A stretch of 64,000 bases of DNA, from NCBI GenBank assembly GCA_001563305.1, contig CP013703.1:1413773-1477772 (forward strand). The letters run 5' to 3'. This DNA comes from a methanogenic archaeon mixed culture ISO4-G1. GTDB taxonomy: Archaea > Thermoplasmatota > Thermoplasmata > Methanomassiliicoccales > Methanomethylophilaceae. Position 1 is the stretch's first letter, and each line of letters starts with the position of its first letter. The notes beneath the pieces were generated by a model. That model had not been told where the DNA came from. It searched no databases and saw only the letters and a list, made by a program, of their open reading frames with translations. The position numbers and the translations under genes are program-made. Below, piece after piece: positions 41,204-45,147 of the stretch.

Positions 41204-41854
41204 TCACAGATTCCCGAGCACCCATTCGAACGATCTGGCACATCTCTTCGTGACGTCCTTGAAATGGTTGCCCGCGTTCCATTCGAGGAGTACTTTGTCA
41301 CTTCCGATTTGCTCTGAGAGTAGATCGTACTGCAGCCTGATCCTGTCCGCAACGGTGGCCATGACCTGATTCCTGGTCTTGGCCTCCCTGTCACCGAGAC
41401 TGAGGTACACCAGGCCCGTCCTGATAGAATTGTTCGCGATGAAGGAATCCCACTCCGGGAACCAGACCGACGGCGATGCCGCGGCACATCCGCAGAACGA
41501 ATCCGTCCGATAACAAGCCCACAGCGAGAACAGTGCCGAGAGGGAATAGCCTCCGATCACGTACCTTTCGCAGCCCAGCTCCGGGATCAGCACGTCGGTG
41601 ATGAAGTCCAGCATGTCCCCGGCACCGTCCCCGAAGGGCTCGTTCCCGAATACCGGCGGGGCCTTCCATGGGGACATCTCATGGTTCCAATCGTCGATCC
41701 TCACGGCAGCGACGGTGACCTCCGGAATCGAGCCGATGAGTTCCGGCAGGAACTTCTCGTCGAAGTCAGCGAAGAACGTGATGACGCAGAGATCCTTTCT
41801 CCCTTCGCGGATGCAGATCTCCCTTTCTCCGATGACCTTGCTGACAGTGGCCAT
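41204..41854 (-). CDS. Alpha/beta-hydrolase fold esterase-like protein
   Basis: 216 residues. Nucleophile elbow GGYSLSAL, an aspartate in SLGDREAKT and a histidine in AGNHFKDV are in the right order and spacing for a Ser-Asp-His triad. No signal peptide is seen. It resembles the putative esterase family that includes siderophore esterases; its place next to an iron-type importer is suggestive but not proof. Start ATG 41854. Confidence 0.7.
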   Translation of the reverse strand: MATVSKVIGEREICIREGRKDLCVITFFADFDEKFLPELIGSIPEVTVAAVRIDDWNHEMSPWKAPPVFGNEPFGDGAGDMLDFITDVLIPELGCERYVIGGYSLSALFSLWACYRTDSFCGCAAASPSVWFPEWDSFIANNSIRTGLVYLSLGDREAKTRNQVMATVADRIRLQYDLLSEQIGSDKVLLEWNAGNHFKDVTKRCARSFEWVLGNL

Positions 41855-41897: not shown

Positions 41898-42680
41898 TCA
41901 CCAGTTGAGTGCACTGTTCAGGAAGACGTACGGACGGCCGTCCTTCATGACGACCTCCGAATCCACGTCGTAGACGTCCCTGATCATCTGCTCTGTGATC
42001 GTGTCCTCAGGCCTTCCCACGTCGTAGATGACGCCGGGCTTGGCCATGACGATGATCTGATCCGCATATCTCGCGGCGATATTCAGATCGTGGCTGATCA
42101 TGATGATGGTGCTCCCGGATTCCTGGGAGAGCTCGTGCATGAAATCCGATACGAAGATCTGGTGCTTGATATCCAGATTGGCCGTGGGTTCGTCCAGGAT
42201 CATGATCTCCGAGTTCCTGACGATACCGCGGCAGAGTGCGACCTTCTGGATCTGACCGGCGGAAAGCTCGTTGCAGTTCCTGAGTGCCAGATCCTTGATG
42301 CGCAGGACACTGAGTGCCGTATAGACCTTGGCGATGTCCTCGTCGGATCTGTGCCAGCGGTCCTTCTTCTCCATGGCTATGAGAACGGAATCCACGACGG
42401 ACATCGGGAAAGCTATGGATGTCGTCGCCGGGACGAAGCTCATGATCTCGGACAGCTGCTTCGCATTGAGTTCCTTGATGTCCGTCCCGTTGACCACTAT
42501 GGATCCGGCCGTTGGCTTCAGCAGTCCGTTCAAGCACCTGACCAACGTCGATTTACCGACCCCGTTCGGACCGACGATGCACAGCAATCCGTTCCCGTCG
42601 AAATGGAGATCGATGTCGTGGAGTACCTTGGCATCCGAGGAGTAATCGAAATCCAGATGGTTGATGTCTATCTTGGTCAT
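41898..42680 (-). CDS. ABC importer ATP-binding protein, FecE type
   Basis: About 260 residues from ATG 42680 (MTKIDINHLDFDY; the longer frame runs inside the permease gene). Walker A GPNGVGKST, signature LSAGQIQK, Walker B ILDEPTANLD and the switch histidine HD are intact. It drives a siderophore/haem/B12-class importer with the two genes upstream. It begins two bases after the permease stop. Confidence 0.93.
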   Translation of the reverse strand: MTKIDINHLDFDYSSDAKVLHDIDLHFDGNGLLCIVGPNGVGKSTLVRCLNGLLKPTAGSIVVNGTDIKELNAKQLSEIMSFVPATTSIAFPMSVVDSVLIAMEKKDRWHRSDEDIAKVYTALSVLRIKDLALRNCNELSAGQIQKVALCRGIVRNSEIMILDEPTANLDIKHQIFVSDFMHELSQESGSTIIMISHDLNIAARYADQIIVMAKPGVIYDVGRPEDTITEQMIRDVYDVDSEVVMKDGRPYVFLNSALNW

Positions 42681-42682
42681 CC

Positions 42683-43801
42683 TCACCACCCCGTCCTGCG
42701 CTGCTTGATGATCAGATACAGGAACATCGGACCTCCGATGAACGCGGTGATGATTCCGACCTGCAACGTGGTGGGCGCCAATATCACCCTTCCGAGAACG
42801 TCGCAGACTATCAGGAACGCCGCTCCGAACGCCGCCGATGCCGGCAGCAGGAGACGGTTGTCGGAACCGATGAACATCCTGACGATATGCGGACATACGA
42901 GTCCTATGAATCCGATGAGTCCAGTGAAACAGACAACCGCGGCGGTCACAAGGGACGTGACCAGCAGGCTGGCTATGCGGAACTTCTCGACGTTGATCCC
43001 CAGCGTCTTCGCCTGCTCGTCACCCATGGTCATCGCGTTAAGCTTCTCGGCCATGAGATACAGGATTATCGTTCCGGGGATGACGACGATCGCCATGACG
43101 ACGACCTCCTCCCATTTCAATCCGGTGAGGTCTCCGACGCTCCATTCGAAGACCGCAGCCAATGCCGCGTTCTCCGCCCATATCTTCATGAGCGACGTGA
43201 CCGCGTTGAACAGGTACATGACGGCGATACCGGCCATGATAATCGTGGTGACGGAAGCGCTCTTCAGCTTCGAGACCGAGATGATGACGAACATCGGTAT
43301 GAGCGAGAAGATGAACGCGTTAATGACCAGGGAATACTGTCCAGCGACGACGGTGAAACCGGCACAGATGGCCAGCGTGGCACCCAGAGATGCTCCGCTG
43401 GAGATTCCCGTGGTGTAGGTATCGGCGAGAGGGTTCTTCAGGATACCCTGCATCATGACTCCTCCGATGGAGAGGGCCATACCCGCGAGTATACCCCCGA
43501 CGACCCTGGGTGCGCGGTGGATGCAGACGACGTAGTCCTCGATGGCCATATCCTCCGGTACATTGCCGGTTATGTGGTCCCAGACCAGCTGATACGTCTG
43601 CAGGAACGAGATGTCGTATTCCCCGATGGACAGCGCATAGCCTGCGGTGATGAAGGCGATAACTATGCATACCACTATGAACACGTACTTCAGGTGGTTA
43701 AAGTGGTGGTACTCCTGCACGTCCTCCTTCACGACCTCGCTTTCACTGTGCAGCCATTCGTTCACGGCGGCCTTCGTTATACTGGACTGATCTCCGCTCA
43801 T
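42683..43801 (-). CDS. ABC importer permease, FecCD family
   Basis: 372 residues with about ten membrane helices after an unusually long hydrophilic N-terminus (~40 residues). RAPRVVGGILAGMALSIGG is the family's conserved first cytoplasmic segment and GLIGFIGLVCPHIVR the coupling-helix region. It forms the homodimeric channel of iron-siderophore-type importers. Operon order: binding protein, permease, ATPase. Confidence 0.93.
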   Translation of the reverse strand: MSGDQSSITKAAVNEWLHSESEVVKEDVQEYHHFNHLKYVFIVVCIVIAFITAGYALSIGEYDISFLQTYQLVWDHITGNVPEDMAIEDYVVCIHRAPRVVGGILAGMALSIGGVMMQGILKNPLADTYTTGISSGASLGATLAICAGFTVVAGQYSLVINAFIFSLIPMFVIISVSKLKSASVTTIIMAGIAVMYLFNAVTSLMKIWAENAALAAVFEWSVGDLTGLKWEEVVVMAIVVIPGTIILYLMAEKLNAMTMGDEQAKTLGINVEKFRIASLLVTSLVTAAVVCFTGLIGFIGLVCPHIVRMFIGSDNRLLLPASAAFGAAFLIVCDVLGRVILAPTTLQVGIITAFIGGPMFLYLIIKQRRTGW

Positions 43802-43863: not shown

Positions 43864-45147
43864 TCAGAGGGCGAACCAGGCACCATCGTTCTTGACGTCC
43901 ACATCAACGGATGTGAAGTCACTGAAGTACTTCTGGAGGTACTCCCATCCCTTGTCCTCGCTGAACTTCTCGGGATAGAGCATGTGGGCGACCATCGGGA
44001 GGTATGCATAGCTTCCGAAGGTGATGGTGAAGTACACCGCATGGTAGAGGTTGCCGTCGGCCTTGATGGAGATAGGACTGAACGCCTCCTCCTGTGCCGC
44101 GATCTGGCTGTTGAAGTCCTCTTTGGTCAGCGTGAGTCCGGTTCCATAGTTCTCGTAGAGGATGAGCATCGCATCGAACGACTTCTTGTAGTTCTTGTAT
44201 GTCCACTCGTTGTCGACGGAGTAGTGTCCGTTCTTGGTGTTGGGCTCGGTGTTGAACACATCGGCCAGACACTCCATCAGGTAGGGGGAGCTGCAGGGCT
44301 TGACCTCATAACCGGTCTTCGCGTCGGAACTGCTCGCGTAATAGTGGGCAAGTGCCAACTTGGTTTTCGTGACACCCTTCATACCGTTCTCGATGTAATC
44401 GTTGATACCGTTGACGAAGGATGCGTACTTCTGGGCCTCAGTGGTCTTGTTGACGAGCAGTCCCATGATCTCGACGAATCTGATCAGGTTACCGTAGCTG
44501 TAGATGTCGATGTACAGGGTTGTGATCTTGGGGTCGGCCTCCATGGCCGCCTCGCAGACCTTGGTGTCCCATGTGTCTGCAAGGATGAAGTCGCACTTCT
44601 CCTCGAGGATCCTCTCGGTCGTAGGGGCCTTTCCGCCCACGTACGAGGCGACTCCTGCGGGCAGATCGTAGATTCCCGCACGTGACTCCGTGAGGGATGT
44701 GGATGCGAGCTTGAGGTTCTTGGTCATTCCGAGAATGTCGAGAAGCTCGACGAAGAAGTACCTGTTAATGCAGATCTTATCCGCGGTGACGGGGAACGAC
44801 TGCTTCTGGGGTTTGTCCTCCCAGTTCATGTAGAATATGTCGCACTTCTCCCTCTTGATGATCTTCTGGACCAGCTCTACGTCCGATTTGTCGAACTTAC
44901 CGTCCTGGTTTGCATCGAGGAAGTCGTATTCAGCTCTGCTGATGGTATCGTCGGCCAACAGCTTGTTCATGAGGTCGACGTCTTTCTGATCGATTGCATC
45001 ATCGTTGTTCGCGTTACCGAACACGGGGAGGTTCCCTGTCGCCTTCACGTTGTTGGCACCACCGCCGCCGAGGAGCATCAATGCACCTCCGGCACCGGCG
45101 ACGACCATGATTGCGACGAGAGCGATTGCTATAATCTTCTTGTCCAA
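43864..45147 (-). CDS. ABC importer substrate-binding protein with an inserted dockerin module
   Basis: About 427 residues from TTG 45147 (DKKIIAIALVAIMVV follows), chosen because AAGGTG sits five bases upstream and the TATA box lies at 45181-45187; the ATG at 45213 would be upstream of that box. Layout: signal/anchor helix (~3-28), glycine-rich linker, two dockerin-type F-hand repeats (residues 45-56 and 78-89, each with D/N-x-N-x-D-x3-D-x2-D calcium loops), then a TroA/FecB-like binding domain. Dockerins bind cohesins; none is in the window. Confidence 0.88.
   Translation of the reverse strand: MDKKIIAIALVAIMVVAGAGGALMLLGGGGANNVKATGNLPVFGNANNDDAIDQKDVDLMNKLLADDTISRAEYDFLDANQDGKFDKSDVELVQKIIKREKCDIFYMNWEDKPQKQSFPVTADKICINRYFFVELLDILGMTKNLKLASTSLTESRAGIYDLPAGVASYVGGKAPTTERILEEKCDFILADTWDTKVCEAAMEADPKITTLYIDIYSYGNLIRFVEIMGLLVNKTTEAQKYASFVNGINDYIENGMKGVTKTKLALAHYYASSSDAKTGYEVKPCSSPYLMECLADVFNTEPNTKNGHYSVDNEWTYKNYKKSFDAMLILYENYGTGLTLTKEDFNSQIAAQEEAFSPISIKADGNLYHAVYFTITFGSYAYLPMVAHMLYPEKFSEDKGWEYLQKYFSDFTSVDVDVKNDGAWFAL

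Follow-up and report, generated by a model that had tools for sequence, protein, structure and literature searches.

A predicted dockerin fold built into FecCD-type solute-binding proteins of a rumen methanogen with no detectable cohesin

The DNA analysed here (the window; 64,000 nt in length) comes from the methanogenic archaeon ISO4-G1 (GCA_001563305.1, CP013703.1, 1,413,773-1,477,772), a sheep-rumen member of the Methanomassiliicoccales with a genome of 1,593,503 bp (PMC4824259). The genome is a single contig of that length, and the window corresponds to G000:C1:1413773-1477772. Among named genomes, the nearest relatives that we found belong to Candidatus Methanomethylophilaceae and come from animal guts. 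On the minus strand, the window carries a gene for an ABC solute-binding protein (SBP) together with the permease and ATPase genes of the same importer, and the features are laid out as follows.

43864..45147, minus strand: dockerin-bearing class III ABC SBP gene (427 aa, TTG start, TGA stop)
45067..45138, minus strand: N-terminal hydrophobic helix, probable membrane anchor (residues 4-27; hydropathy; without a lipobox cysteine)
45025..45066, minus strand: flexible tether from membrane helix to dockerin (residues 28-41; pLDDT <50 up to residue 37)
44851..45024, minus strand: dockerin module (residues ~42-99; profile and predicted fold)
44980..45015, minus strand: F-hand calcium loop 1, NANNDDAIDQKD (residues 45-56; sequence)
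44881..44916, minus strand: F-hand calcium loop 2, DANQDGKFDKSD (residues 78-89; sequence)
43867..44847, minus strand: class III solute-binding domain (residues 101-427; structure match and profile)
42683..43801, minus strand: FecCD-type permease of the same importer (PF01032, E 1e-85)
41898..42671, minus strand: ABC ATPase of the same importer (PF00005, E 2.3e-28)

The SBP gene stops at TGA, and thus its reading is not shortened by TAG, which encodes pyrrolysine in some ISO4-G1 genes. Its product begins with a hydrophobic segment (about residues 1-28), a pattern that recurs in the paralogues; after it come a stretch rich in Gly and Asn, the pair of F-hand loops and finally the binding domain. 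The module does, as a preliminary description of this DNA had it, separate the membrane anchor from the binding domain, with the helix, residues ~42-99 and the SBP following one another in that order.

The same description took the protein for an iron-type ABC binding protein, and this assignment is well founded. The best VIA match of the SBP part is YiuA (9if3_A; Z 26.4, rmsd 2.8 over 310 residues, model range 105-427), and a family profile searched against the PDB retrieves iron-type SBPs (4mo9, E 5.8e-24). The PF01497 score of 17.8 bits (hmmscan) lies under the cut-off of 27.5 bits, which is an annotation threshold and not a defining trait, and marks a divergent member; two paralogues, L006 (36.4) and L009 (52.2), exceed that cut-off. 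Predicted fold and profile together place residues 101-427 in the class III SBP family (PF01497). Additionally, the operon trait of class III SBPs, a FecCD permease plus an ATPase, is present at the locus, and the gene order SBP-permease-ATPase is conserved in six related loci. Just downstream of the importer genes lies an ORF (41204-41854, minus strand) with a GYSLSA nucleophile-elbow-like motif. It has no Pfam match and no homologue in the related loci compared, including six neighbouring orthologous cassettes; a PDB search gave seven weak matches (E 0.07-0.6), all to esterases, six of which are named siderophore/enterobactin esterases. As a hint to the substrate of the importer, this ORF could be a lead only.

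What, then, is the module between anchor and receptor? In the translation, loop 1 reads N45-A-N47-N-D49-D-A-I-D53-Q-K-D56 and loop 2 reads D78-A-N80-Q-D82-G-K-F-D86-K-S-D89; both hold the full F-hand ligand set (positions 1, 3, 5, 9 and 12), and they lie 33 residues apart. N3, D5 and D9 of loop 1 are conserved in 96 homologous modules, N1 and D12 of the same loop being partly fixed by the selection pattern used to pick the modules. Across all nine of the genome's own paralogues, G44, N45, A46 and D56 in the loop 1 region and D78, N80, D82 and D89 in loop 2 are invariant. The module scores just under the Pfam Dockerin_1 (PF00404) cut-off of 22.9 bits by hmmscan (20.7 bits, E 4.9e-4) and above it in the genome scan (25.5 bits), and the paralogues above that cut-off number two of nine by hmmscan and five of nine in the genome scan. 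A profile of 38 homologous modules matches solved dockerins far more strongly (5lxv_B, 1.2e-7; 1daq, 1.3e-6; 1ohz_B, 1.4e-5). VIA on the full-length model lists SBPs only and is thus silent on the dockerin part, for which reason a separate model of the module was made. This model was predicted at pLDDT 92.8; dockerins account for 33 of its 35 Foldseek rows, the other two being noise, and its best VIA match is 2ccl_B (Z 10.0, rmsd 1.6 over 59 residues). A chance EF-hand-like motif was considered and ruled out by the family profile and the predicted fold, and also because all nine dockerin matches in the 1.59 Mb genome share the same place in the same type of protein. The initial reading of the two calcium-loop repeats as a dockerin is therefore upheld, and a two-loop dockerin fold in the SBP gene at 43864-45147 (minus strand) is confirmed at the level of structure prediction.

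The preliminary description also called the fusion unusual, and here it did not hold. The genome contains nine dockerin modules, all directly before a class III-type SBP and none elsewhere, each protein having the TM-dockerin-SBP layout and a length of about 415-477 aa; a repeat scan with a lineage dockerin profile (E <= 10) returned the same nine, with one module split over two rows. Six SBP-like proteins of the same genome are without a dockerin, so the module is not needed for such importers in general. In a tree built from the SBP parts of these 15 proteins, in which long branches call for caution, the nine with a dockerin stand apart from the six without (support 93/96; 0 of 500 shuffles as low), which looks like a single old fusion followed by expansion. 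Beyond this genome, PF00404 matches occur in 94 of the 147 genomes of the order. The search for related loci returned none with a single protein query, and relatives were retrieved with a closer alignment as the query. When the SBP alone served as query across the order, a survey free of the bias of selecting by dockerin, the dockerin was joined or upstream at 28 of 30 loci. At 27 of these loci the module is directly upstream in an intact open frame, and at one (L129) the module is upstream with an in-frame TGA between it and the SBP. The remaining two loci lie at contig ends, L090 starting inside the module and retaining its second loop and L131 being cut before the module. The survey of relatives that had been suggested thus finds the module present in the orthologues. 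An isolated or recent fusion is ruled out by the nine paralogues and by the order-wide occurrence, including that with the SBP-only query. A fusion spread through the phylum was ruled out as well: the eleven matches to the lineage dockerin profile examined outside the order (L214-L224, from other Thermoplasmatota families) are single C-terminal dockerins on long surface proteins with no SBP attached. Judged from these sequences, the fusion is universal in the homologues and, within the lineage, is the rule and not an oddity.

Several observations at individual loci may be recorded here. L129 (1177-2532, plus strand), in genome G032, occupies the same place as L091 and L147 and reflects either a disrupted gene or an error in the sequence. 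Directly upstream of one dockerin-SBP paralogue lies a gene for a nitrogenase component 1-like protein (L004:1811-3064, minus strand; PF00148, E 5.3e-43). Elsewhere in the genome (L022:1-2025, plus strand; G000:C1 from about 1210045), an open frame that starts before the locus encodes a NifH-like reductase (PF00142, E 2.7e-64) joined with a domain resembling nitrogenase component 1 (PF00148, E 5.9e-57).

To which part of the protein does the module belong? Over 98 units, the dockerin ends 0-9 residues before the SBP begins, with no gap at all in 72 of them. The tether between membrane helix and dockerin, compared over 85 homologues, is 13-36 residues in 77 and 176-283 in eight; in the one long-tether protein scanned with Pfam, the extra length consists of Big_2 Ig-like repeats. 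Relatives also encode single proteins of ~860-1420 aa in which the dockerin-SBP unit occurs two or three times, no unit lacking a module. The fixed gap to the SBP, the variable tether and the tandem repetition of the whole unit indicate that the module goes with the receptor and not with the anchor. The full-length model has pLDDT 92-98 across module and junction (pTM 0.85), a confidence that suggests a fixed placement of the module. Such tandem receptors were seen at L063 (1127-5098, minus strand), L064 (1286-4507, minus strand), L065, L069, L070, L071, L165 and L170, and the L064 protein carries Big_2 Ig-like repeats after its membrane helix, ahead of the first dockerin-SBP unit.

The usual plug-in partner of a dockerin is a cohesin, and the receptor had been imagined as docked to a surface complex or to partner cells. 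Such a partner was sought in the single-contig genome with PF00963, which gave no cohesin match, and with a profile built from 15 cohesins of the same order, which gave none at E <= 1; this absence rests on profiles, which a partner of unrecognised fold could escape. Of the 147 genomes of the order, 19 have a cohesin match at E <= 0.01 (12 above the Pfam cut-off), against the 94 with dockerins, and dozens of relatives keep the module fused to its SBP while showing no cohesin.

Where cohesin modules do occur in relatives of the same family, examples being G083, G091, G042, G090 and G084, several proteins combine a cohesin with a canonical dockerin (for example, L072, L073, L075 and L082). In L076 and L077 the cohesins sit on proteins with Big_2-resembling repeats, and L077 ends in a C-terminal hydrophobic helix. 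From these sequences, part of this gut methanogen family seems to have a separate cohesin-dockerin system.

The conservation pattern within the module bears further on docking. The conserved positions are the calcium ligands and the hydrophobic core, and the exposed helix positions vary. Loop positions 10, 11, 17 and 18 are the recognition residues, which are conserved among the dockerins of one cohesin system. Over the 96 SBP modules, no conserved recognition residues were found at these positions: the entropies are 3.16, 3.14, 2.34 and 3.11 bits in loop 1 and 2.83, 2.53, 2.32 and 2.91 bits in loop 2, in a homologue set that was partly chosen by its dockerin and is thus biased toward conservation. 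The nine paralogues of this genome differ from one another at the same positions. Ser at position 13 is found in none of the 96 SBP-module loops 1, as opposed to seven of 11 first loops and eight of 11 second loops in the canonical dockerins of the order, a comparison set of only 11 modules. From loop position 12 onward, the canonical modules tend toward D-S-L-L-L-K/R-K-Y-L-A and the SBP dockerins toward D-V-x-x-I-x-x-I-I.

These data allow us to weigh the possibility that the module is a true plug. Its target would be cohesins of bacteria living alongside in the rumen, or a cohesin that has diverged beyond the reach of the profiles, and binding would tie the receptor, or the cell itself, to a partner. 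Fold and calcium loops match those of working dockerins, cellulosome-bearing bacteria are neighbours in the rumen, some same-family relatives have cohesins with canonical dockerins, and ANME archaea pair dockerin-bearing SBPs with scaffoldin-like cohesin proteins (PMC9012536). However, neither profile finds a cohesin in the genome and most fusion-bearing relatives also have none, loop positions 10, 11 and 18 are among the most variable, the canonical Ser is never present at position 13 of loop 1, and the module is internal, held between tether and SBP. We consider a plug of this kind improbable. The dockerin and its fusion to a membrane-anchored SBP stand as first described, and the docking role is not supported, with no cohesin found, variable recognition positions and a fusion that persists in relatives showing no cohesin.

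Could the module instead be a relic of ancestral cohesin docking, lingering without a task after the cohesin was lost in most lineages? The patchy cohesins and widespread modules of the order would fit such a history, but a useless module should decay, and here calcium ligands and core persist among paralogues with SBP identities down to ~20%, and the whole unit has been duplicated in tandem with the module never lost. We find this history very hard to believe.

A third alternative is that the module contacts a partner of its own cell that is not a cohesin, such as the FecCD permease or further receptors, and thereby promotes receptor clusters or the handover from SBP to transporter. It draws on the far better conservation of the module (~42% identity in unit pairs whose SBPs share ~19%, figures again biased toward conservation by the choice of homologues), on the retention of a module by every unit of the tandem receptors, and on the conserved gene order of SBP, permease and ATPase at related loci. 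Yet the module has no conserved exposed patch, with ten variable positions (54, 55, 58, 61, 62, 87, 88, 91, 94 and 95) at 2.3-3.3 bits, and SBPs lacking the module exist in the same genome. On balance, such a contact seems unlikely to us.

We hypothesize, and think it reasonably probable, that the module is an obligate, calcium-stapled structural neck of a lineage-specific SBP family and not a plug for cohesins. The protein would be the substrate receptor of a FecCD-type ABC importer (the iron-siderophore/cobalamin class), held outside the cell by its uncleaved N-terminal helix and short flexible tether. After export, the dockerin would fold around two Ca2+ ions, locking a compact module between tether and receptor, and the resulting rigid, protease-resistant neck would present the binding domain to the permease. 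The receptor would then capture an iron-type ligand and hand it to the FecCD permease; in tandem receptors, the neck would space one binding domain from the next. Here we infer Ca2+ binding, the rigidity of the neck and its effect on transport. M. alvi, the described type species of the family, has a single membrane with no cell wall or S-layer (PMC10673518); by analogy with this trait, which is that of M. alvi and not of ISO4-G1, a membrane-tethered receptor may be a natural design.

To annotation pipelines and readers, a dockerin commonly signals a cellulosome-like assembly. Dockerins that occur throughout a lineage with no recognisable cohesin, and that are fixed on receptors, imply that the presence of a dockerin is not in itself evidence of docking. 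The genome paper of ISO4-G1 predicts 15 ABC transporters for Fe3+ or siderophore uptake (PMC4824259). These receptors are expanded in rumen methanogens, and their build bears on nutrient capture by a methane producer of the animal gut. The tandem receptors offer natural material for testing the role of the module. A more ambitious conjecture, which we regard as doubtful, is that in the Methanomassiliicoccales the dockerin, once a plug, has become a lasting component of a receptor family that needs no cohesin, has been copied together with the SBP to give receptors with two or three heads, and makes a Ca2+-dependent contact with something other than a cohesin, such as the permease.

How do these proteins compare with known systems? 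The type I cellulosome dockerins (C. thermocellum 1ohz/2ccl, C. acetobutylicum CaDoc0917) have the same fold, paired F-hand calcium loops and a similar sequence, but they usually sit on secreted enzymes and are bound to cohesins, whereas the ISO4-G1 module is internal, lies in an SBP and has no cohesin in its genome. From the canonical dockerins of its own order it differs in having no Ser/basic pattern. The dockerins of L214-L224 are of the same module type and from the same phylum, but are placed C-terminally, away from any SBP. The receptor half has the fold of the class III SBPs (YiuA, FepB, FhuD, BtuF; PF01497) and likewise adjoins a FecCD permease and an ATPase. In a sequence search of the PDB, the best stretches cover either the SBP or the dockerin and none covers both, and the dockerin passages of the Methanomassiliicoccales literature examined do not describe the fusion. 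A close likeness is found in ANME archaea, also anaerobic, in which dockerins occur on the binding components of ABC importers, with SBPs of the NikA/OppA and TroA types, alongside scaffoldin-like cohesin proteins (Chadwick et al. 2022, PMC9012536). The ANME genomes thus encode cohesins and scaffoldin-like proteins and ISO4-G1 has no cohesin that we could find; the ISO4-G1 SBP is of the FecCD class (PF01497), unlike those of ANME; and its module is fixed directly N-terminal of the SBP, module position in ANME being outside this comparison. Dockerin-bearing SBPs as such were therefore already known from ANME archaea, and what is new here is a FecCD-class, lineage-wide and apparently cohesin-free version of them that also comes in tandem forms.
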